Positions 49,918-64,000 of a stretch of DNA of 64,000 nt are shown here, in pieces; position 1 is the stretch's first letter; every line of letters starts with the position of its first letter. A program made the position numbers and the translations under genes. Source of the DNA: Pseudacidobacterium ailaaui (GTDB taxonomy: Bacteria; Acidobacteriota; Terriglobia; Terriglobales; Acidobacteriaceae); the NCBI RefSeq assembly GCF_000688455.1, contig NZ_JIAL01000001.1, forward strand, positions 2,077,001-2,141,000, written 5' to 3'. The notes beneath the pieces are model-generated. The model made no database searches. It was given only the letters and a program-made list of their open reading frames with translations, and was not told the origin of the DNA.

Positions 49918-50062
49918 GGAGAGATACTGCTCCTCAGGAATCAATCGTGCGCCGGGGGATGCTCTATAAGGGTATCGCGCCTGAGGCAAAAGAAAAACAG
50001 CTATTTTGTGGCCTGTTGGATCCGCAAGGTGCGCACACAGGTGGCTCGGCCACCCGGTTTCC

Positions 50063-50539
50063 TTACTTGTCGGACTTCAGCTCCACAGAAACCAGGTTGC
50101 GGACCGACCGCGCAGGACGCCTGTCTTCGGAGACCACTAGACGGAATGGGCCAATCTTTGCGTCCAGAGGTTTTCCGTCCATCGTATCGGCCACAATCAC
50201 ATCGCCGGGATGAAAATCAGGCTCAGCTTCGGCCAGCGCCAGGATTGCCTTGTAGCCGTCCGATCCCGTTGCCACCACATATTGCGAAAGCACCTTGCCC
50301 CGCACCTCGTGCCCTGTCGGGGCGCCCACCTGCTTCAATAGCTCTATCAGCGGCACGCCGGAGTACGTTTCGTCCTGGTTCGTATGGGGATCGTGCACGG
50401 TGACCGTTTGATGAGGAAGAGATTGCAGCGATTCCCTGGAAAAAGACGCCTGCTGGCTGCCATTCTGCACTCTGAGCGTTTGCGCGCAGAGTGAAAGGGA
50501 AACCACGCTGATCCAGAGCAGAAGCAAAGGTGTTCGCAT
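50063..50539 (-). CDS. Secreted molybdopterin-binding-like protein
   Basis: 158-residue exported protein resembling the Mo-pterin-binding fold of sulfite-oxidase-type enzymes (small stand-alone version). It has a signal peptide, then SLQSLPHQTVTVHDPH and GVPLIELLKQVGAP, LAEAEPDFHPGDVIVADT and GPFRLVVSEDRRPARSVRNL, the family pattern. No catalytic cysteine is obvious, so it may bind but not use molybdopterin, or be a homolog of unknown role. Confidence 0.75.
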   Translation of the reverse strand: MRTPLLLLWISVVSLSLCAQTLRVQNGSQQASFSRESLQSLPHQTVTVHDPHTNQDETYSGVPLIELLKQVGAPTGHEVRGKVLSQYVVATGSDGYKAILALAEAEPDFHPGDVIVADTMDGKPLDAKIGPFRLVVSEDRRPARSVRNLVSVELKSDK

Positions 50540-50680
50540 CAGGGCCATCCTGGGGCAGGAAATCGACAACTAGAATCATAAACGAGTCTTGTACCAGTCT
50601 CCTTGCTTTTGCCGGCACTCCCAAGGACTTTCTCTGCCGCTTTTTCGTGCAGCGCTTTTCCGGTCGCCGCTGCTTGGCTC

Positions 50681-50686
50681 TATACT
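50681..50686 (+). promoter_or_regulatory. -10 box directly before nuoI
   Basis: TATACT ends 6 nt before the nuoI ATG at 50693, so the transcript start would fall on or beside the A of ATG. The -35 is weak. There is no Shine-Dalgarno sequence before the start, consistent with leaderless translation. Confidence 0.55.
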
Positions 50687-50692
50687 AGAAGC

Positions 50693-51187
50693 ATGTCCAT
50701 CGTGCGCAACATCGCGGCCATCAGCAAGGGAATGAGCATCACCTTTAAGGAGATGTTCCAGCCGACCGAGGTAGAAAACTACCCCGACGGCCCCGGCCCC
50801 ACGCGCGGCGCTGTCCTGCAGGACCGCTTCCGCGGAGCGCATGTGCTCCAGCGCGACGAAAACGGCCTGGAAAAGTGCGTCGCCTGTTTTCTCTGCGCGG
50901 CCGCCTGCCCCTCCAACTGTATCTACATTGAGGCCGCCGAGAACACCGCCGAAAACCGCATCTCCAGCTCCGAGCGCTACGCCAAGGTCTACAACATTGA
51001 TTACAACCGCTGTATCTTTTGCGGATACTGCGTCGAGGCCTGCCCCACCGACGCCATCACCCACGGACACGGCTTTGAGTTGGCCAGCCTGAACGCCACC
51101 AACCTCGTCATGCGGAAAGAGGACATGCTGGTGCCGGCCGTCGGTATGCCCGGCGAGCTGGCTGCCCACTCGGATTCGGTGAAGTAA
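50693..51187 (+). CDS. nuoI: NADH-quinone oxidoreductase subunit I (orphan)
   Basis: 164-residue iron-sulfur subunit with two [4Fe-4S] ferredoxin motifs: CVACFLCAAACPSNC (about residues 60-74) and CIFCGYCVEACP (about 105-116). The N-terminal TFKEMFQPTEVENYPDGPGP is typical of NuoI. No other nuo gene is nearby, so it either joins a complex encoded elsewhere or a distinct ferredoxin-type function. The start lacks a Shine-Dalgarno sequence and has a -10 box 6 nt upstream. An in-frame start at 50603 is open but has no homology. Confidence 0.85.
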   Translation: MSIVRNIAAISKGMSITFKEMFQPTEVENYPDGPGPTRGAVLQDRFRGAHVLQRDENGLEKCVACFLCAAACPSNCIYIEAAENTAENRISSSERYAKVYNIDYNRCIFCGYCVEACPTDAITHGHGFELASLNATNLVMRKEDMLVPAVGMPGELAAHSDSVK

Positions 51188-51194
51188 AGCGCCA

Positions 51195-51350
51195 TTCCGC
51201 CCCCCAAAATGCCGCTTGCCTGAAGACGGCTCCTCTTCTCCGTTCCCGAGCCATTAACATGGATGCGGGCCTTCAGGGCCCCGTTTTGAAAGAAGACCGG
51301 GGAACCAGACGGCAAAAGGTCCGGACAAGAAACCGTCCGGTATGACAACG
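51195..51350 (+). promoter_or_regulatory. Structured leader candidate upstream of metH
   Basis: The 173-nt leader before metH contains hairpins: GGGCC-TTCA-GGGCCC near 51269, CCCCG with CGGGG around 51283-51305, and CCGGAC-AAGAAACC-GTCCGG at 51321-51340, ending 20 nt before the ATG. None matches the B12 box or the SAM/SAH riboswitch consensus that I remember. It could be an uncharacterised regulator of methionine synthesis or just chance stems. Confidence 0.35.
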
Positions 51351-51360
51351 CACAGCGAAC

Positions 51361-54852
<3,492 letters not shown>

Positions 54853-55079
54853 CATGGTCAGGGAGCTTTGGGTGCTCCACTCCAAGCTTCCGCTGCCGAT
54901 CTGCTTGGCGAAAGCAAGCTCCTTTGCATGAAGGTGCCGTGCCCGGTCCTTTGCGTCTCCATGCCTTCAGTGGGGGAGTGCTGATGAGGTCGGATCATCC
55001 AGGGTGAAGTGCCAAAACGTTCATCCAGCCCAGCTATTGGATACCCACAGAGCAACGATTCTGCTATCCTCACGCCAGT

Positions 55080-55433
55080 ATGGCCCCCCTCAGGATCCTG
55101 CACGTTTGTAGCCGCGACCTCATCCGCGAGTTGCGCGATGAAATCCTTCAACTGCATGGCTATCAGGTCGTCTCCACCCTTTCCGTGCAGGAGGCAGAAT
55201 CCCTCTACCGGCAGTCCCCGTTCGACCTTGTCCTCGTGGATGTAGAAGGGGATGGGCGCATTCCGATTGCCGAAAAACTCTGCGAAGATGTCCGCAGGAT
55301 CCATCCCGACCAGAAAGTGGCTTTCGTCTGCAATTATCGCGTGGCAGACAGCAGCGACTGTCCCGACGAGATCATCCGCAGCGAATTCAACCCTCAGGCC
55401 CTGGTCGAAGGGGTCAAAACAGTACTCGGTTAA
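55080..55433 (+). CDS. Degenerate receiver-like protein
   Basis: 117-residue single-domain protein with a CheY-like fold: ILHVCSRDLIRELRDEILQLHGY, then FDLVLVDVEGDG, where the Asp of the VDV position aligns with the phosphoacceptor. The usual N-terminal acidic pair is replaced by CSRD and the conserved late Lys appears missing, so phosphorylation is doubtful. A TATCCT box lies just upstream, so the mRNA could be nearly leaderless. It has no output domain. Confidence 0.6.
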   Translation: MAPLRILHVCSRDLIRELRDEILQLHGYQVVSTLSVQEAESLYRQSPFDLVLVDVEGDGRIPIAEKLCEDVRRIHPDQKVAFVCNYRVADSSDCPDEIIRSEFNPQALVEGVKTVLG

Positions 55434-55561
55434 AAAATTCTGATTTCAACAGAAAAAGTGCCGAGAATTACCCCTGATTTTGAAACAATAGAAATAGAGA
55501 GAGTTTTCTCGAAAGAGGGGACCTTCCATCTCGTTTGCATTGCCAATCCGTTAGGCGAGCT

Positions 55562-55650
55562 TCGCTAACCTCTTTCTTAAGAGGAATTTAGAAAAAATCA
55601 TCGAACGATTCGCCGGCGAGAGGCCATCAGGCCCCGCCGTTTTTGTTTTT
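55562..55650 (+). repeat. Terminator-bearing tandem repeat, copy 1
   Basis: 89-nt unit that recurs 145 nt downstream with about 6 mismatches. It begins TCGCTAAC, has a CCTCTT/AAGAGG hairpin, an A-rich stretch, ATCG-AA-CGAT, and ends in a GC-rich hairpin plus GTTTTTGTTTTT at 55615-55650. Upstream, GTTAGGCGAGCTTCGCTAAC gives an extra stem overlapping the start. Both strands can be read as coding, but the hairpin-plus-T-run suggests RNA. Confidence 0.85.
55615..55650 (+). terminator. Intrinsic terminator in repeat copy 1
   Basis: GGCG...CGCC and GGCC...GGCC form a two-part stem around ATCA, followed by GTTTTTGTTTTT. Confidence 0.7.
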
Positions 55651-55706
55651 CGGTCGGCATTGGGTTTCAGGCGACCCCTCGCACCCAGGAGGTGGAGATT
55701 CGATCA

Positions 55707-55795
55707 TCGCTAACTCTTTTCTTAAGAGGAATTTAGAAAAAATCATCGAACGATTCGCTGGCGGGAGCCCATCAGGCCCCGCCGTTTTTGTTTTT
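55707..55795 (+). repeat. Terminator-bearing tandem repeat, copy 2
   Basis: Second 89-nt unit. The mismatches fall in the first hairpin (which still can pair, CTCTT/AAGAG) and in the terminator stem (GGCGG/CCGCC, GCC/GGC), so pairing is kept. Its T-run ends at 55795, immediately before the GGAGG of the glucosaminidase gene at 55796-55800. Confidence 0.85.
55760..55795 (+). terminator. Intrinsic terminator in repeat copy 2, just before a gene
   Basis: GGCGG pairs with CCGCC and GCC with GGC, loop CATCA-like, then GTTTTTGTTTTT. The downstream gene's ribosome binding site begins at the next base, so transcription from upstream would have to pass this terminator to reach the gene. Confidence 0.75.
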
Positions 55796-55806
55796 GGAGG
55801 AAAAGC

Positions 55807-56271
55807 ATGACCATGCAGGAAGCATTTCTTCAGAAGGCCTGTCAGGCTGCAAGGGCCGCCGGGCACATCTTCCCCGAGTATGCCGCTTGTGAAGCCGCTC
55901 TTGAGTCCGGGTGGGGACTCTCTCTTCTTGCCACGGAGGCAAATAACCTCTTCGGCCAGAAACAGGCGCATCCGCCGCTTCCCGGCACAGAAACCATTGC
56001 TCTGCCCACGCGGGAATACCTTCATGGCACATGGAGCACTGTCCAGGCTTACTGGGTGAAATTTCCTGACTGGCAGGCCTGTTTCGCAGAGCGGATGCGT
56101 CGATTACGGACCCTCGCTTCGGGCTGGCCCCATTATGCGGCGGCGCTGTCTGCCCGGACCGGGGAGGAATTTATTCAGGAGGTTTCAAAGAGCTGGTCCA
56201 CGGACCCGCACCGGGCAGGCAAGGTCCTGTCGGTTTATGACCACCACGGGGCAGTGTTTCAAAAGGCTTAG
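55807..56271 (+). CDS. Glucosaminidase-family peptidoglycan hydrolase
   Basis: 154-residue protein resembling the FlgJ/mannosyl-glycoprotein endo-beta-N-acetylglucosaminidase fold: YAACEAALESGWGLSLLATEANNLFGQK, with the Glu in AALESGWG as the likely catalytic residue, then TVQAYWVKFPDW and YAAALSARTGEEFIQEV. No signal peptide, as in phage-type endolysins. It sits behind two terminator-bearing repeats. The TAG stop overlaps the stop of the convergent MFS gene. Confidence 0.8.
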   Translation: MTMQEAFLQKACQAARAAGHIFPEYAACEAALESGWGLSLLATEANNLFGQKQAHPPLPGTETIALPTREYLHGTWSTVQAYWVKFPDWQACFAERMRRLRTLASGWPHYAAALSARTGEEFIQEVSKSWSTDPHRAGKVLSVYDHHGAVFQKA

Positions 56272-57497
56272 TCCTTGCGGGCCTGGATGCGGTCGCGAAC
56301 CAGGGACAGATAAGCCACAGCTCCCAGAAACGTTACCCCCGAGCAGGTCTTCAGCGCGAGATGGAATGAATGGGTCTTGTCCAGAAGCCATCCTGTCAAC
56401 CATGGCGCAGCCGAGGCAAACAGAAAACTTGCGAAATTCTGTGCCGCCCCCACCCTGGCTACCAGATGTGCAGGCGTGGCGGTCTGCACCAGTCCCCAGG
56501 CTGACGTCCCGGCAAAATGGATAAAGAAGAGCGCCATCCCGATGACGGCCGCTGCCCCCCAAGCAGTGGCCGCGTGCGGGACCAGCAGGGTGCATGTGGC
56601 CGAGCAGAGCATCCCTGCAACAATCAGGCCTTTGCGGCTGTGCAAGGGATCGCGCCCTCGCCCCACCAGCGTGTCGGCCACTGCTCCATTCACCAGCATC
56701 CCGGCCGAGCCCATTAGGAAAGGCAGTGCCGCCAGCCATCCCGCGGCTTTCAGGCTTACTTGATGGGCCGCCTCAAGATAGCCCGGTACCCATGTCAGAT
56801 AGAGCCATGCCGTGTAATTGATTCCGCTGAATCCCAGCATCATTCCCCAGAGGGTGCGCTGTCGCAGCAGCCCCCAGACGTCCCGAGCCAGAGAAGCCCT
56901 CTCCTGAAAGCGAGTGCCATCATCCTGGGGAGATTTCGCAGGATAGACGGGCCACCAAACCAGCGCCACCACGACCCCCAGGGCTCCGATTCCCAAGAAC
57001 ATGCTGCGCCACCCGGAAGTCAACAGAAGCAGCGTCAAGACTGGAGGGGCCACTGCCTGTCCCAGCGTGGTCGAAGCGTTCAGGACGCCCATCGGCAGCC
57101 CACGCTCTGGCTCCGCATACCAGTCGCGAATGACTTTGACGCCTCCGGGCAGAAACGGTGCTTCGCCCGCTCCCAACCCGATGCGGGTGCCCGCCAGTGT
57201 CGCAAAGCCGGAGACGGTTCCGGTCGCCATCTGCGCTGCCGACCACAACAGCATACTCAGGCCCAGGACCGGCCGCGGGCCGGAGCGGTCCAGCAACCAG
57301 CCCGCCGGAAGCTGTGCCAGACCATAGGCAATAGAAAACGCAGAAAACAGCGCCCCGATCTGCGTTGCAGAAAGATGGAGCTCTCCCCGTAGCGTCGTAT
57401 TGGCGACAGAAAGCGCACTGCGGTCCAGAAAATTGACGATTCCGCCCAGAACAAGCAGAGCCAGGATGGCCGCGCGCAGGGGGTGAGATCGCTGCAT
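56268..57497 (-). CDS. MFS transporter
   Basis: 409-residue major facilitator with 12 predicted helices. The early motif GALFSAFSIAYGLAQLPAGWLLDRSGPRPVLG matches the family signature between helices 2 and 3. Resembles the anion:cation symporter (ACS) type for hexuronate- or glucarate-like substrates. The start is the ATG at 57497. Substrate not determined. Confidence 0.9.
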   Translation of the reverse strand: MQRSHPLRAAILALLVLGGIVNFLDRSALSVANTTLRGELHLSATQIGALFSAFSIAYGLAQLPAGWLLDRSGPRPVLGLSMLLWSAAQMATGTVSGFATLAGTRIGLGAGEAPFLPGGVKVIRDWYAEPERGLPMGVLNASTTLGQAVAPPVLTLLLLTSGWRSMFLGIGALGVVVALVWWPVYPAKSPQDDGTRFQERASLARDVWGLLRQRTLWGMMLGFSGINYTAWLYLTWVPGYLEAAHQVSLKAAGWLAALPFLMGSAGMLVNGAVADTLVGRGRDPLHSRKGLIVAGMLCSATCTLLVPHAATAWGAAAVIGMALFFIHFAGTSAWGLVQTATPAHLVARVGAAQNFASFLFASAAPWLTGWLLDKTHSFHLALKTCSGVTFLGAVAYLSLVRDRIQARKD

Positions 57498-57672
57498 TCT
57501 AGATGAAGATAGCAGGTAGGCCCCGTTCTCTTTTGCGCGCGGAGAAGGAGGAAGGGCCAGAAATCAATCGCACGGAGGTCTCCCAAACTAAGGCGGCCGA
57601 AACCATGTCTCCTCGACGGCCATTGCTGGCCGACGGTCCAGCCTCTGCCGTCGATCAGGATTGCGTGTGGTC

Positions 57673-57678
57673 TAAAAT
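57673..57678 (+). promoter_or_regulatory. -10 box for rnpB
   Basis: TAAAAT lies about 6-10 nt before the estimated 5' end of RNase P RNA. The -35 is not clear. Confidence 0.45.
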
Positions 57679-57683
57679 AGATG

Positions 57684-58126
57684 GAGCGGGCAGCCGGGCG
57701 GTCGCTGCCGTCATGCACATGCGTGACGGGAGAGGAAAGTCCGAACTCCGCAGGGCAGTGTGCCGGATAACGTCCGGGATTCAGGCGTCAAGGCCTGAAG
57801 ACGGCCAGTGCCACAGAAAACATACCGCCTGCGCCGCAAGGCACAGGTAAGGGTGAAAAGGTGCGGTAAGAGCGCACCGCTTCGACGGTAACGCCGAAGG
57901 CAGGGTAAACCCCACACGGAGCAAGACCAAATAGGGAGGGATGCGCGGCAAGACCCGTTCCGCCGCGCGGCGTTTCGGCCCGGAGCGCCAGCGAGGGTCA
58001 TCCAGACTGGCGGCCATGTGCCGCTAAGTGGAGCGGAAACCTCCGGGTAGGTCGCTTGAGCGCCGCAGCAATGCGTCGCCTAGAGGAATGACCGTCCTTG
58101 ACAGAATTCGGCTTACAGGCTGCTTG
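57684..58126 (+). ncRNA. rnpB: RNase P RNA (class A)
   Basis: The catalytic RNA that matures tRNA 5' ends. Diagnostic conserved segments are seen in order: GAGGAAAGTCCGAACTCC, GGGCAGTGTGCCGGATAA, CACAGAAAACATACCGCC, GGTAAGGGTGAAAAGGTGCG, the ACGGAGCAAGACCAAATAG region, TAGAGGAATGACCGTC and GACAGAATTCGGCTTACAG. The end segments GCAGCC near 57690 and GGCTGC near 58118 form P1. Ends are estimates. It lies upstream of fabD. Confidence 0.95.
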
Positions 58127-58133
58127 CAAATAC

Positions 58134-58164
58134 GGCCCTGCTTCTCCTGACCGAGAGCAGGGCC
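58134..58164 (+). terminator. rnpB terminator
   Basis: GGCCCTGC and GCAGGGCC form an 8-bp perfect stem with a 15-nt loop, 7 nt after the end of RNase P RNA. The following bases TTCCCGTG give a weak T-tract. Confidence 0.7.
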
Positions 58165-58256
58165 TTCCCGTGCTGAGGCGTATGCTGTGCTGGAGCCGTC
58201 TTTTTGGCTCCGCCCAGTTGCGCCAACCCGGTCGAATCAGTTGAAATACCTCTGAC

Positions 58257-59204
58257 ATGAACCAAAAAAAGCTGGTCTTTCTTTTTCCCGGACAAGGATC
58301 GCAGACCGTCGGCATGGGTCGCGATCTTTACGAGAAGTTTGCCATCGCGAAACAGACCTTTGAGGAGGCCGACGACGCCCTGAGGTTTTCGCTCTCCAAG
58401 CTCTGCTTTGAGGGGCCTGAAGAGCAGCTTCGCCTGACCGAGTTCACACAGCCGGCCATCTTCACCGTCTCAATTGCCGCACAGCGCGTCCTGGCTGAGA
58501 AGGGTATTCTGCCAAGTTTTGCCGCAGGCCATTCACTCGGCGAGTACTCGGCCAATGTTGCAGCGGGCGTGCTCTCGTTTGCTGACGCAGTAAAGACTCT
58601 GCGCAACCGCGGACGCTACATGCAGGAAGCCGTGCCGGCCGGGCAGGGCGCCATGGCAGCAGTTCTTGGTCTTGGCGCAGAAGCGGTCGTTGAGGTCTGC
58701 GCCAGGGCCGCCAGGGAGACCGCAGCCATCGTCTCGGCAGCCAACCTGAACTCGCCGGAGCAGACGGTCATCTCCGGCGCCGTTGCTGCCGTGGAGCGGG
58801 CCGCGGCTCTTGCCAAGGAGGCCGGGGCCAAGCGTGCTGTGATGCTTCCAGTGAGCGCGCCCTTCCACTGTGCGCTCATGCAGCCCGCGCAGGACCGCCT
58901 CGCCGAGGACCTGCGCCGTCTGAACTTTTCTGCGCCCAAAGTGCCCATTGTCACCAACGTAGATGCAGCGCTCGTCACGGAAGCTGGCCCGCTGTGCGAT
59001 GCGCTGGTCCGCCAGGTGACCGGCTCTGTGCGCTGGGTCGAGTCGGTCCGCCTGCTGACAGAACAGAAGCCGACGCATTTCCTTGAAGTAGGCCCGGGGA
59101 AGGTCCTCTGCGGGCTGCTACGCCAGATAGACCGCAGCCAGACGGCCCTGAATGTGGAAGATACGGCAAGCCTGGAAAAGGCCCTCGCTGCTCTGGAAGC
59201 CTGA
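58257..59204 (+). CDS. fabD: Malonyl-CoA:ACP transacylase
   Basis: 315-residue enzyme loading malonate on acyl carrier protein for fatty acid synthesis. The nucleophile serine is S93 in GHSLGEYSANV; FPGQGSQTVGMG is at the N-terminus and the histidine is in APFHCALMQPAQDRL. Full length. No other fab genes are adjacent in the window. Confidence 0.96.
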   Translation: MNQKKLVFLFPGQGSQTVGMGRDLYEKFAIAKQTFEEADDALRFSLSKLCFEGPEEQLRLTEFTQPAIFTVSIAAQRVLAEKGILPSFAAGHSLGEYSANVAAGVLSFADAVKTLRNRGRYMQEAVPAGQGAMAAVLGLGAEAVVEVCARAARETAAIVSAANLNSPEQTVISGAVAAVERAAALAKEAGAKRAVMLPVSAPFHCALMQPAQDRLAEDLRRLNFSAPKVPIVTNVDAALVTEAGPLCDALVRQVTGSVRWVESVRLLTEQKPTHFLEVGPGKVLCGLLRQIDRSQTALNVEDTASLEKALAALEA

Positions 59205-59231
59205 GCACCCCCTCAGAGGATGGCAACAGGA

Positions 59232-59268
59232 AAAGGCCCATCCCATGCGGCTTGCGGACAGGGCCTTT
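59232..59268. terminator. Hairpin between fabD and the Ig-like protein
   Basis: AAAGGCCC and GGGCCTTT form an 8-bp stem with a 21-nt loop. On the minus strand the stem is followed by TTCC, a short T-run. Confidence 0.55.
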
Positions 59269-59282
59269 GGAGCAAGACGTTT

Positions 59283-60215
59283 TTACTTGACGGTCAGGGC
59301 AAGTTGCAGGTTGTGTGTGGTGACCTGCCCGCCATTATTTGAGTAAGCAGTCACCGTAAGCGTGTAAGATCCGGCCGGAGTACCGGCATTTGCTGCTGGG
59401 GGATGGTTCAGGTATCCCCAGCGCGCATTACATGCTGAAAGCCCCGAGGCGCAGACCAGCAGAAGCAGAGGAAGCGCCAGCATCCGCAGCCCGGAGCGGC
59501 GCAGCCGCAGAAGCAGCCACGCTCCCGGCAGGGCCAGTGCATATGCGATCTGAGAAGCCCTTTCGCCCAGCGGAAGACCCTGGTTTCGGGCCCCCGAATA
59601 AGCGGAGGTCTGGATCTGGAGTGTACTCAGGGCGGAGGCGCCGTTCAAAGGCGTCACGATCTGTGGCGTAAATGTTGCTGAAGAACCATTCGGCAGTCCG
59701 GAGATCGAGAGCGTCACGGACTGGGTGAAGGACGCGCTGCTCGGCGTGATTGTGAGGACCACCGTGCCATAATCGCCAGGATTCAGAGAGAGGGAAGTGG
59801 GGCTTGCGGTTATGGAGAAATCCGGCAATGTGCCCGTGTCTTCCGCGTGCAGGTTTGCTCCTGCAGAGGCGGAGGCGGCATGGCTGCTGTCGCCCGAATA
59901 GACGGCGGTGATCTGCTTTACGCTGGCAGGAGGCGCGTCTACGGTCAGATCTGCCGTACCATCTTCTTTCAGAAACACAGAACCCAGAGATGTGGTCCCG
60001 CTCACAAAGCTAACGGTGCCGCCGGAAACCGCGCTCCCGGTCGGGTCCTGGACCTTGACCGAAAGCGTCGTTTTTCCTCCATCTTTTGCTACGGAAAGAC
60101 TGGTGCGTGTTGCAATGGTCTGACCGTGGCCGTGCGGAAGCACCAGTACAAGCGCCAGCAAAGCAAACATGGCGGCCGGAAACTTCCTGAAAATGTTACG
60201 TGACTGCAAACTCAT
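59283..60215 (-). CDS. Secreted Ig-like domain protein
   Basis: 310-residue exported protein. After a signal peptide (cleavage near GHGQT) there is a bacterial Ig-like domain (TRTSLSVAKDGGKTTLSVKVQDP, then VSFVSGTTSLGSV, ITAVYSGDSSHAAS), a second beta region (residues about 130-205), and a hydrophobic segment (about 215-265) followed by a short C-terminal beta domain with GSYTLTVTAYSNNG. Probably cell-surface. Common layout in Terriglobia; function unknown. Confidence 0.75.
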   Translation of the reverse strand: MSLQSRNIFRKFPAAMFALLALVLVLPHGHGQTIATRTSLSVAKDGGKTTLSVKVQDPTGSAVSGGTVSFVSGTTSLGSVFLKEDGTADLTVDAPPASVKQITAVYSGDSSHAASASAGANLHAEDTGTLPDFSITASPTSLSLNPGDYGTVVLTITPSSASFTQSVTLSISGLPNGSSATFTPQIVTPLNGASALSTLQIQTSAYSGARNQGLPLGERASQIAYALALPGAWLLLRLRRSGLRMLALPLLLLVCASGLSACNARWGYLNHPPAANAGTPAGSYTLTVTAYSNNGGQVTTHNLQLALTVK

Positions 60216-60384
60216 TCGTCCGGTTCTCTACCCTTTTGAGCGGAAATCTTGTAATACCCAATTGTATCTGTGCGGCGCAAAAACGGCGATGCCCGCAGCC
60301 CGGCATTTGTTAGACGCTGAGGGCAGAATTTGGCGATGACCGGTATCTGGGAAGCGCCGGAATACTATAGACTGCGGTCAGACA

Positions 60385-61143
60385 ATGGATGCATCTCTGG
60401 AACAGCTCTTTCATCTTCAGCACGTAGACCTGGAAATCTCGCAGTTGCAAAAGGCCATCGCTGCCTTGCCGCGGCATCTGGCCGCTCTGGAAGAACGGTT
60501 GCGTGTGCAGAAGTCGGCCGTGGAGGAAGCAGGCAGGGCCATCCAGGCCGAAGAGGCAAAGCGACGGCGCATGGAAAGCGACATTCAGGACCAGCAGCAG
60601 AAAATCGCAAAATTCCGCGAGCAGTCCGGCAGCGTCAAGACCAACGAGCAGTTTCACGCTCTCCAGCATGAGATTTCCTTTGCAGAGAATGAAATTCGCC
60701 GTCTGGAAGACGCCGAACTGGAGAGTATGGAGCAGTCGGAGCGTCTGGAAGCGGTGCTGCGGGAGGCGAAGCAGGAACTGGAGCGGCAGACGGCATTGAT
60801 TGAGCAGGAAAAAGAATCGGCCCGTGCGGAAATTACCCAGAAACAGCAACGGCTGGAAGCCTTGCAACAGGAACGCGAGGCCCTGCGCAGCCAGTTTGAG
60901 CCAGACCTGTTGGCCGACTACGACCGCATCACCGCCTCGCGCACAACGGCAGTGGCCAAGGTGAAGGACCAGCGCTGCCTGGGATGCCAGATGTTCCTTC
61001 GGCCCCAGATGTGGAACCAGGTGCGGCAGGGCGCACGCATGCATTGCGAGAGTTGTGGACGCCTGCTCTATTACGAGTCGGTCGCTGACCCAGCCGGCCA
61101 GTATGCGGACGATCAGCCCCGATGGAACGGGCCGACAGCATGA
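60385..61143 (+). CDS. Coiled-coil zinc-ribbon protein (PF02591-like)
   Basis: 252-residue protein with a long coiled coil (residues about 15-170) and a C-terminal zinc ribbon [10 protein letters not shown]...[10 protein letters not shown]. It belongs to the C4-type zinc ribbon family (CdsZ/DUF-like), probably a nucleic-acid-binding protein. Its TGA overlaps the ATG of the next gene (ATGA). Confidence 0.88.
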
Positions 61144-61664
61144 AGCGCATCGCCATTGATATGGATGAGGTGCTTGCCGATACGCTTTCAGAGCATGTGG
61201 CGCGCTACAACCGCGATTTCCAGGAGGCCATTTCGAAGGCCGATCTTGAGGGCCGCTGGCTATGGGAGATTGTTCCTGTGGAGAGGCATGCCCAGCTTGA
61301 GGCGTATCTGCGCTCTGAGGATTTCTTTGAAGACCTGCCCGTCATGCCTGACAGCCAGCGTGTTGTGAAGGCTTTGACGCAGAAGTACGAGGTCTTTATC
61401 GCGAGCGCAGCCATGGAGTTTCCGAACTCCTTTGGCCCGAAGTACCGCTGGCTGCGCCGCTATTTCCCCTTCTTGCCCCCGACACACTTTGTTTTCTGCG
61501 GTGACAAGGGCATTCTGGATGCGGATTTTCTCATCGATGACCAGCCCCGCCAGTTGCTGCGCTTTCGCGGCAAAGGTATTTTGTTTTCTGCCCCGCATAA
61601 TCTGCGGGTCACGGGCTTTCAGCGTGTCCATGGCTGGCTGGAGGTCGAAAAGCTGCTTTTGTAA
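61140..61664 (+). CDS. 5'(3')-deoxyribonucleotidase
   Basis: 174-residue HAD-family nucleotidase. The catalytic DxDxxxxD reads [11 protein letters not shown] and a conserved late motif is [13 protein letters not shown]. It likely dephosphorylates deoxynucleoside monophosphates to control dNTP pools. The ATG overlaps the preceding stop by 4 nt; an upstream ATG at 61122 is also in frame. Confidence 0.88.
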
Positions 61665-61669
61665 ATCTT

Positions 61670-62296
61670 TTATGCTTTCCGCTTCCGTCTTTTCCTCACC
61701 TGGCGCAGTCCCAGGTAAATCAGGACAGCAAAAACTGCGCAGAGCAGGGCGAGCAGCGCAGCCGAGTGCTGACGCGCCAGGTCATGCACCATCGTGACGA
61801 TTTGCGGGCCATAGCGGATGACCAGGAGCGCTTCCACGGTAAAACGGACCAGTCGGCCCAGAAACACCGCTGCCAGGAAATCGCGCAGATGCATCTCAAA
61901 AACGCCGGCGCCAAAGACGAAGAGCTTCCAGGGCGTGGGGGGTGGGAGCATGGAAGGCACAAAGACGGCGAAAAATTCCTGCTTCTCAAAGCGGTCGCGC
62001 AACTGCTCAAAACGCTGCCGGTCGACCCGTTTCAGCAGGAAAAGTTCACCACCTGCCCGCCCCAGAAAAAAGGGCAGAAGGCCGCCGATCGATGAGCCGA
62101 TGGCGGCCATGATGGAGTAAAGATAGAAGTGCCTGGGATCGGCCCATACATATCCGGAGATGATGAGGTCCATGGGGACGGGGATGGTGCTGGAATCGAG
62201 CAGGGCCAGCACGCCCGCTCCCCAGAATCCGAGTGGCTTCAGTACGGCGACAAGCCAGGCGCTGAATTTCAAAAAGAGGGCTGAAAGACGTTTCAA
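61670..62296 (-). CDS. DedA/VTT-family membrane protein
   Basis: 208-residue polytopic protein of the DedA family (SNARE-associated/VTT domain): LDSSTIPVPMDLIISGYVW, then GSSIGGLLPFFLGRAGG and FVPSMLPPPTPWKLFVFGAGVFEM. Related proteins transport lipid carriers or cations. It is 4 nt overlapped with the upstream MogA-like gene on the same strand. Confidence 0.88.
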   Translation of the reverse strand: MKRLSALFLKFSAWLVAVLKPLGFWGAGVLALLDSSTIPVPMDLIISGYVWADPRHFYLYSIMAAIGSSIGGLLPFFLGRAGGELFLLKRVDRQRFEQLRDRFEKQEFFAVFVPSMLPPPTPWKLFVFGAGVFEMHLRDFLAAVFLGRLVRFTVEALLVIRYGPQIVTMVHDLARQHSAALLALLCAVFAVLIYLGLRQVRKRRKRKA

Positions 62297-62802
62297 GACG
62301 GTCTACTGTTTCCTGTGTTGGAAGGGATTTCATGCGTCTCCGTTCCGGCCAGCAGGCCCAGGGCGTGGGAGAGCAATGGAAGTATGGCCAGCAATGAGGT
62401 CGCCGCTCCGCGCGGGCTTCCCGGTAGATTGACAATGAGCGACTGGCCCCGGATTCCGCACACGGCACGGCTGAGGGCGGCAAAAGGGGTCTCCTTGCGG
62501 CCTTCCAGGCGCATCACCTCAGCAAGGCCGTCCAGCAGGCGGTCGCACATTTTCTGCGTGGCTTCCGGGGTGACGTCCCGCGGCGCAACTCCGGTCCCTC
62601 CCGTGGTGACGACCAGTTCGGCCTCGCTGCAACAGCTCCGGAGTGCGTTTTCGATGGCTGGCTGCTCATCTGGAACAGTGAGCTTGCACACGGTCACAAA
62701 TCCGTGGGCTGCCAGAAGCTCGGTGACGGCCGGGCCGGAGAGGTCCTGGCGGGTCCCTGCAAAGCAGGAATCACTGACGGTAATCACGGCTGCCTTCGGC
62801 AT
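62293..62802 (-). CDS. MogA/MoaB-like molybdenum cofactor protein
   Basis: 169-residue protein of the molybdopterin adenylyltransferase family. The binding motif is VVTTGGTGVAPRDVTPEAT and, later, IVNLPGSPRGAATSLLA. It may adenylate molybdopterin before metal insertion. Overlaps the DedA gene by 4 nt. Divergent from the TonB-like gene. Confidence 0.92.
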   Translation of the reverse strand: MPKAAVITVSDSCFAGTRQDLSGPAVTELLAAHGFVTVCKLTVPDEQPAIENALRSCCSEAELVVTTGGTGVAPRDVTPEATQKMCDRLLDGLAEVMRLEGRKETPFAALSRAVCGIRGQSLIVNLPGSPRGAATSLLAILPLLSHALGLLAGTETHEIPSNTGNSRPS

Positions 62803-62941
62803 ACTTTTCTGATTGTAACGGGAGGACCTTCGAGCACTACCGTTTCTCTTCGCGCTGAGTCAAACTGATAGATTTTTCCCCTCTATGTGAGAGAATGAAG
62901 AGATACAGGAAAATCCGGCCGGCGGCCTGAACCGTTTCCGA

Positions 62942-64000
62942 ATGCCCATTACCGAAGTCCCAACCAATCCATCTGGTGCTCCCCCAGAGCCGCCACGAAC
63001 TCGCCGAACTCAGCAATACGAGCACCTTGAGCGGCACGAGCTGCTTCAGGTCATGGATGAGCTGCAGGATGAGCGTGCTCGTGCCCGCCTGCGGGAGGTC
63101 TTCTGGGTCTCCATTATTATTCACCTGGTCGTCTTTTGGTTCCTCGCTTATGGGCCGAAATATGTTTTCCACCAGGTGAAAGTAGTCGATCCGTTTACTG
63201 TTTTGAAGGAACGGGAAAAGCAGCTTACATACCTGGACCTGCCACCGGACATGCAGAAGCCGGTGAAGCCCAGGCGGTCTGATGTGATCTCTGATAAGGA
63301 CCGCGTCGCCCAGACAAAACATCCGACGCTGGACCGCAAGACCCTGGAAGAGCTGGAGGCCATGAAGCGTGCTGGTCCGCCCGCTCCCCAGCCAGCACAG
63401 AAGCCGGGAGAGACGCCCCAGGCCCCTGCACCACAACAGGCACAGGCTTCACCGCCGCCGCAGCCGATGCCGCAGGCCCGACAGACGCCGCCTGCGCAGC
63501 CTTTGCGGCAGAGCGAGCAGGCCCAGCTTGAGGCCCCTGCTCCCAAACCGGCCCCAACCCAGCCAAACTTCAATACGGGAGGTATGACTGCGGGCCAGGC
63601 CATCCAGCAGGCAGCGCGCAATGCCATCCGGTCCGGCCAGCTCGGCGGAGGCGGTGATATGGGTGCCAATGCTCCCTCAGCGCATCCCGGGGTAAACGGA
63701 GCGGTAGATATTCTTAGCGACACGATGGGTGTGGACTTCGGCCCCTACATCCGCCGTATTATTTACGACACAGAGCGTTCCTGGTGGCCCATCATCCCGG
63801 AATCGGCGCGTCCGCCCATCTCCAAGCAGGGCAAGGTCGGCATACGTTTCAAGATCATGCCGGACGGGAGCGTAAAGGAGATGGTCCTGGAACTGCCCTC
63901 GGGCGATGTGGCCCTGGACCGCGCCGCGTGGGGAGGCATTACCGGTGCATCACCCTACCCCCCATTGCCGAAGGAATTCAAGGGGCCATTTCTGGAGCTG
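62942..64000 (+). CDS. TonB-like energy transducer, 3' truncated by window
   Basis: 353 residues are visible and the frame runs off the window. A soluble N-terminal part of about 50 residues is followed by a single helix (about 53-72), a Pro/Gln/Ala-rich spacer (about residues 140-210) typical of TonB-type proteins, a Gly-rich patch and the start of a TonB C-terminal domain (GVDFGPYIRRIIYDTERSWW, then GKVGIRFKIMPDGSVKEMVL). It transmits proton-motive force to outer membrane receptors. The long soluble N-terminal region before the helix is unusual for TonB. Start ATG at 62942. Confidence 0.85.
   Translation, partial: MPITEVPTNPSGAPPEPPRTRRTQQYEHLERHELLQVMDELQDERARARLREVFWVSIIIHLVVFWFLAYGPKYVFHQVKVVDPFTVLKEREKQLTYLDLPPDMQKPVKPRRSDVISDKDRVAQTKHPTLDRKTLEELEAMKRAGPPAPQPAQKPGETPQAPAPQQAQASPPPQPMPQARQTPPAQPLRQSEQAQLEAPAPKPAPTQPNFNTGGMTAGQAIQQAARNAIRSGQLGGGGDMGANAPSAHPGVNGAVDILSDTMGVDFGPYIRRIIYDTERSWWPIIPESARPPISKQGKVGIRFKIMPDGSVKEMVLELPSGDVALDRAAWGGITGASPYPPLPKEFKGPFLEL

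Follow-up and report, generated by a model that had tools for sequence, protein, structure and literature searches.

In lambda Q-type control, lysis genes are governed by a promoter-proximal terminator, and the dispersed intergenic repeats of bacteria include REP/BIME, RUP, and MITE. Leader transcription attenuators, each an intrinsic terminator inside a 5′ UTR, have been surveyed (PMC2965389); in the part of that survey used here, the attenuators predicted for the phylum Acidobacteria are almost all without known function. Acido-1 and Acido-Lenti-1 (RF01686, RF01687) are described, in the part of the source used here, as candidate RNAs of Acidobacteria (PMC2864571).

The locus considered here lies in a stretch of DNA of 64,000 nt (the window, in what follows) from a soil bacterium and carries two direct-repeat copies immediately before a glucosaminidase gene. 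We set the chances at roughly even that it is a promoter-proximal attenuator of this gene, extended by a dispersed element and present twice, that keeps expression low or conditional. The features are as follows:

55458–55497, plus strand: promoter-like block GTGCCGAGAATTACCCC...TTTTGAAACAATAGAAATAG with a −10-like box at 55483–55497; present before the same gene in G001, G159, and G047
55556–55650, plus strand: repeat copy 1 (unit 1 and terminator 1), from the repeat search and copy alignment
55565–55598, plus strand: dispersed intergenic unit, copy 1 (TAAC...AAGAGGAATTTAG); model R3, 22.0 bits, E 7.8e-5 in 482 kb
55614–55650, plus strand: terminator-like hairpin 1 with a bipartite U-run (stem 55614–55639, T-run 55640–55650); −17.4 kcal/mol, bulged stem
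55651–55700, plus strand: single-copy spacer of 50 nt separating the copies
55701–55795, plus strand: repeat copy 2 (unit 2 and terminator 2), from the repeat search and copy alignment
55710–55743, plus strand: dispersed intergenic unit, copy 2; model R3, 28.2 bits, E 7.7e-7 in 482 kb
55759–55795, plus strand: terminator-like hairpin 2 with a U-run (stem 55759–55784, T-run 55785–55795); −18.9 kcal/mol, common to some homologs
55796–55800, plus strand: Shine-Dalgarno sequence GGAGG
55807–56271, plus strand: glucosaminidase-domain gene, 154 aa (PF01832, E 7e-17)

The copies are 92% identical over 95 nt each, are spaced by 145 nt, and form the single direct-repeat family revealed by the repeat search in 55000–56300. 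A sequence-only reading made earlier had two 89-nt units, 145 nt apart and about 93% identical; the repeat and its spacing are borne out, with the length and identity corrected to the values given here. Each copy ends at its 3′ side in a G+C hairpin followed by GTTTTTGTTTTT, as had been claimed, and the second terminator indeed stops where the Shine-Dalgarno sequence starts, its T-run ending at 55795 and GGAGG beginning at 55796. Two of the eight mismatches between the copies fall at the 5′ edge, three in the pyrimidine run of the unit, and three in or beside the terminator stem. The claim that they keep stem pairing is correct only in part: terminator 2 has a 7-pair lower stem, one bulge, and a 3-pair top, and in terminator 1 two A residues of the 5′ arm are unpaired. 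The copies fold moderately better than dinucleotide shuffles, with z of −2.58 (2 of 200 shuffles as good) and −2.00 (7 of 200).

Each copy is a composite of a dispersed unit and a leader terminator. The similarity of the 95 nt and the dissimilarity of the 50-nt spacer fit either duplication of exactly this block or selection acting on it. Duplication of a coding sequence, an alternative raised in the sequence-only reading, is rejected: at a distance of 145 nt the copies lie in different frames, six codons differ in the open frame that they share and five of these differences change the amino acid, and by eye TAG occurs in that frame in several related units.

The 154-aa product, starting with ATG at 55807, matches phage endolysin families (PHROG; best phrog_3513, E 9e-21), and its scores against FlgJ and other hydrolase models are far under the cut-offs. 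The same strand carries, upstream of the gene, a response-regulator-like gene (55080–55433; Pfam match under the cut-off) and metH (51361–54852). Homologs of the glucosaminidase were collected from 27 of 120 family genomes at E ≤ 1e-20 and from 41 of 396 at E ≤ 1e-40, and 44 loci were read. The order of metH, response regulator, and glucosaminidase is unchanged in the sister species (G001); at least the response-regulator gene is upstream in G159; and a metH-end motif is seen in 11 of 27 glucosaminidase loci.

The −10-like box, which recurs before the same gene in relatives, may belong to the promoter of the gene. Its pattern occurs six times in 464 kb of own-genome sequence, and once in the reversed form. 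A generic scan reveals no sigma-70-type promoter in 50001–64000, and no promoter-like box precedes copy 2. The leader in G159 (L218) consists of TGAAATAATAGAAACAG, about 11 nt, the hairpin/U-run, GGAGG, and ATG, with the promoter-like box, hairpin/U-run, and Shine-Dalgarno sequence packed in about 60 nt; a leader this short leaves no room for a sensor before the terminator. The window and the sister species keep both ends of this leader, with about 250 and 175 nt more, respectively, between box and terminator. The longer leader stretches exceed shuffles less clearly than the single copies do, with z of −1.82 for 55499–55700 (8 of 200 as good) and −1.21 for 55499–55812 (11 of 100). No ATG-started plus-strand open reading frame of at least 20 aa, i.e., no such leader peptide, is found inside the leader; GTG- and TTG-started plus-strand frames there reach 36 and 55 aa.

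Neither hairpin is listed by a generic terminator scan, presumably because bulges interrupt the stems. A strict test, requiring a hairpin of ≤ −9 kcal/mol and then T4+ ending 6–50 nt before the start, was applied to 40 of the 44 loci (L089, L218, and L228 were left out as the protein motif was not found, L099 for too little upstream sequence), and 10 of the 40 pass. The hairpin/U-run is present by eye in L089 and L218, both missed by the protein motif of the script, and takes longer or displaced forms in L095, L097, and L230. Under nearly the same rule (T-run end 6–46 nt before starts guessed by script), only 4 of 343 scripted ORFs in an own-genome sample, the window gene among them, have a hairpin and T-run, and a genome-wide architecture of a terminator before the Shine-Dalgarno sequence is rejected on this count. 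Fifteen typed hairpin rows, i.e., the two of the window and those of 13 other loci (L218, judged by eye, is absent), all fold at ≤ −16.1 kcal/mol, tails included, despite differing stem sequences, and all 15 have T4+ after the stem, often bipartite as in the window. In the leader hairpin of L097 (G040), the loop holds about 100 nt with the inverted repeat CAGATTTCCCAT...ATGGGAAATCTG at its ends, which looks like the insertion of a MITE-like element into the terminator loop; the hairpin of its relative L096 is uninterrupted.

On the protein tree (L100 left out; L228 and L099, whose leaders are unreadable, scored as lacking the terminator), the terminator label, carried by 15 of 43 rows, needs five changes, compared with 12.5 in shuffles, none of 500 being as low, and well-supported branches force at least two changes. 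The trait is clustered on the tree, partly from the likeness of near relatives, and has been gained or lost more than once. As 30 of the 40 homologs fail the strict test (in several of these, by eye, a promoter-like box directly precedes the Shine-Dalgarno sequence), the terminator is inessential to the gene. Judged from these leaders, the hairpin/U-run is a shared but dispensable leader feature of the glucosaminidase in part of the family. The sequence-only reading had proposed the gene for control by antitermination; the terminator, shared by homologous leaders whose stems differ yet fold, is a fair candidate for premature termination or antitermination; a sensor role of the module upstream of it is not supported.

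The same hairpin and U-run might instead be a 5′ stabilizing hairpin with a U-rich ribosome standby site, or the end of the upstream metH/response-regulator transcripts, which we regard as rather unlikely. In several relatives the hairpin starts about 5–25 nt from the promoter-like box (by eye) and the Shine-Dalgarno sequence follows close after the U-run; where it starts about a dozen bases past the box, it is perhaps too close to the start site for good termination. The upstream genes shared with G001 and, at least for the response regulator, with G159, and the metH-end motif also favor this explanation. However, the T-run after the stem is common to all 15 typed rows, and in the strict matches the start codon is too near for a promoter between the U-run and the gene to be likely; hence, the mRNA of the gene must include the hairpin. 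With an intrinsic terminator directly before the Shine-Dalgarno sequence, this mRNA would be a read-through product, and its expression low or conditional.

The module upstream of each terminator is a 25–35-nt dispersed intergenic unit, TAAC-YCYTTT-nnnn-WGARGAWTTTR. Model R3 uses 35 units, all of them from other genomes, and hence provides a non-circular test on the own genome. In 482 kb of own sequence it recovers, besides the window copies, ten matches with E between 2.4e-5 and 0.18, all in the six loci preselected for the search; a 400-kb own-genome sample and the rest of the window have none at E ≤ 2. Model R1, trained on nine of its ten own-genome matches, places these ten (E ≤ 2e-4) at six places including the window, and a seventh place has E 0.023. 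The sequence AAGARGAATTTRSAAAAA with at most two mismatches is found 12 times in the own genome, the reversed pattern not at all; ten matches are at unit places, and two (149825, 2694314) resemble coding sequence by eye. With genes named by eye, the units are located behind a TonB-receptor-like gene (three units), before purD (two), in an accD/galT-like gap, in the rplL/rpoB gap, behind gltB, and in the glucosaminidase leader. In the rplL/rpoB gap (L130; genes by eye), the unit is behind a box-like TATGATGAGAAG and a hairpin; an attenuator is located in this gap in other bacteria. When copy 2 was searched as DNA against 200 family genomes, 10 gave a match, which in the nine besides the own genome spans only 19–32 nt. 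Of three matches inspected, L010 is the terminator and Shine-Dalgarno sequence of the sister species, L012 is a terminator-like hairpin, and L019 lies in an apparent coding stretch.

Each copy, with its hairpin, A-rich linker, and terminator, could also be or yield a small RNA, possibly Hfq-binding, in tandem like sibling small RNAs. We find this improbable: the layout fits, and there is a weak Rfam resemblance to the Burkholderia small RNA ncS025, but its score (22.1 bits, E 0.088) is under the gathering score of 46, copy 2 has no promoter-like box of its own, and in the six other own-genome loci no unit is closed by a hairpin and T-run as in the window (by eye). In the own-genome locus L129, a T-run is present but no hairpin is evident (by eye).

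The sequence-only reading suggested that the module could be a sensor or RNA-binding site; on this model it would bind a ligand or a protein, as a riboswitch or antiterminator site, and so control the terminator, in tandem. This would agree with the joint duplication of module and terminator, with eight changes in 95 nt, but the units are not tied to orthologous genes. With R1, the own locus is the only one of 27 glucosaminidase loci to have units (0 of 26 others); with R2, applied to 13 of the 44 loci, units are present in the own leader and in none of the 12 others, so that the search proposed in that reading, for the same repeat before lysozyme-like genes of relatives, gave no second instance among the leaders searched. 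A weak unit with a CCCCCGGGG run is seen directly behind the glucosaminidase gene of G159 (L218 1998–2040; R2 E 0.0077, R3 E 0.00096), and L097 has a chance-level R2 match at the end of the gene (E 0.5). The purD leader appeared promising as a conserved home of the unit from the own genome and from a unit array at purD in G034, and is rejected, as R3 finds units in 1 of 48 purD loci, that of the own genome (one locus had just 41 nt upstream). The purD and glucosaminidase leaders of the sister species contain stretches loosely similar by eye and scored by no model.

Covariance analysis, another check that had been proposed, also argues against a sensor. In alignment A3 of 46 units, 48.7% of the cells are paired vs 50.7% in shuffles, and in a second register of the unit hairpin 83.2% vs 81.9%, with one cell changed on both sides; a hairpin inside the unit is therefore rejected for lack of covariation. 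At the gathering score, Rfam reveals in the window only bacterial RNase P class A RNA (57686–58131, RF00010, 284 bits) and, at loose E-values too, nothing in 18 related loci. Folding of the whole leader predicts terminator 2 at a probability near 1. In favor of the sensor, a transcript that stops at 55778, ahead of the 3′ arm of terminator 2, is predicted to pair some of the 5′ arm with the upstream spacer for a moment; no other sign of a competing structure was seen, and this one does not depend on the unit alone and comes without comparative support. Taken with the unrelated intergenic places of the unit, the negative results make the sensor, in our view, improbable.

In the family, R2 at E ≤ 0.001 detects units in 51 of 348 genomes, which represent at least 13 of 79 genera, with up to about 20 units per genome; as R2, built from 46 units (11 own, the others partly from searched genomes), scored about 19 candidates per genome, counts near 20 are lower bounds. 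The sister species has no units with R1 or R2, and the unit variant differs between genomes. An exact scan of a named genome collection for the unit pattern gives 51 stretches, of which 17 are titled Edaphobacter, Granulicella, or other Acidobacteriaceae/Acidobacteria (six of them Edaphobacter lichenicola) and 34 come from other groups; two of the 34 were inspected, and L184, titled Rhodanobacteraceae, has the array layout. The pattern occurs in three viral contigs, in none of them in an array, and a phage origin of the unit, also suggested from the sequence alone, is accordingly rejected. No description of the element was found in Rfam or in the literature searched, which covered few subscription journals.

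Among 21 aligned loci of genus g31, most share TGTCAAGCCCC, TTGGCATGGTATTTCC, CTAAAATAGAAACAG, a G+C hairpin, three units, and GGGGG(G)AGGGG; L060 has two units, and L072 and L075 lack some of the parts. By scripted ORFs, many g31 arrays adjoin the 3′ end of a convergent gene, and some precede a gene. The order is similar in Edaphobacter-like loci, and in L211 successive units follow about 30 nt apart before a gene. Relative to this layout, the window has the box upstream, terminator 1 before unit 2, and no G-run (by eye). A large intergenic element of about 200–300 nt, consisting of TGTCAAGCCC, a promoter-like box, a G+C hairpin, a unit array, and a G- or C-run, is seen in L047–L075 (g31 ones), L164, L173, L208, L284–L286, and L298, with many copies in some genomes; in g31 a convergent ORF often ends 5–15 nt away from it. 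In G118 (L066, L074), paralogous genes with products that begin MYNECRHIFTSG have a unit a short way upstream of their start.

The unit may act at the DNA level, with a regulator or nucleoid protein binding the direct repeats, or be a spreading repeat whose place before the gene is incidental; we treat this as a serious possibility, if one short of even. The arrays, with mostly three units per g31 locus and units about 30 nt apart in L211, the genome-specific variants, and the purD leaders mostly lacking the unit (apart from the own genome and G034) all favor it. However, arrays of g31, Edaphobacter, and other genera often keep a fixed order after the promoter-like box and G+C hairpin, and this points to a transcribed element. 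More speculatively, and with low confidence, the unit arrays (box, G+C hairpin, at least one unit, often a G-run) would be an undescribed class of transcribed regulatory elements of Acidobacteriaceae acting on transcription elongation or RNA fate of neighboring genes, with the unit of the window joined to a real leader terminator and duplicated together with it.

Under the attenuator reading, the RNA would start near 55499, a position assumed from the box, and RNA polymerase would run into the two terminators in series, the first around +150 and the second around +295. The glucosaminidase mRNA would be the product of reading through both, and this limit would keep a wall-cutting enzyme low; regulation is possible, with no regulator in evidence. 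The dispersed unit would be a hitch-hiking or independently acting element of the leader rather than a dedicated sensor of the gene. In the simplest history, a short leader with a terminator would have gained unit-bearing sequence between the box and the terminator, and the unit and terminator would then have been doubled. For Acidobacteria, the locus provides a candidate cell-wall hydrolase attenuator that lends itself to testing, and its analysis uncovered a multi-copy intergenic element that is unexplained and worth study.

As in leader attenuators, a terminator-like hairpin and U-run lie between a promoter-like box and the Shine-Dalgarno sequence and are common to part of the homologs; unlike in these, no regulator or antiterminator was found, the leader is very short in several relatives, and the arrangement is doubled. 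With lambda Q-type control the locus shares the order of a putative promoter, a putative terminator close behind, and a cell-wall hydrolase gene next, whereas the glucosaminidase gene is chromosomal and near metH in several relatives. Acido-1 and Acido-Lenti-1 differ, having no match at the gathering score at the repeat locus or in the 18 related loci. Similar to REP/BIME, RUP, and MITE, the unit is multi-copy, intergenic, variable from genome to genome, and patchy among species; in contrast to them, inverted-repeat ends were not noticed, and it forms arrays of 25–35-nt direct units, often behind a promoter-like box and hairpin, and with a G-run at the end.
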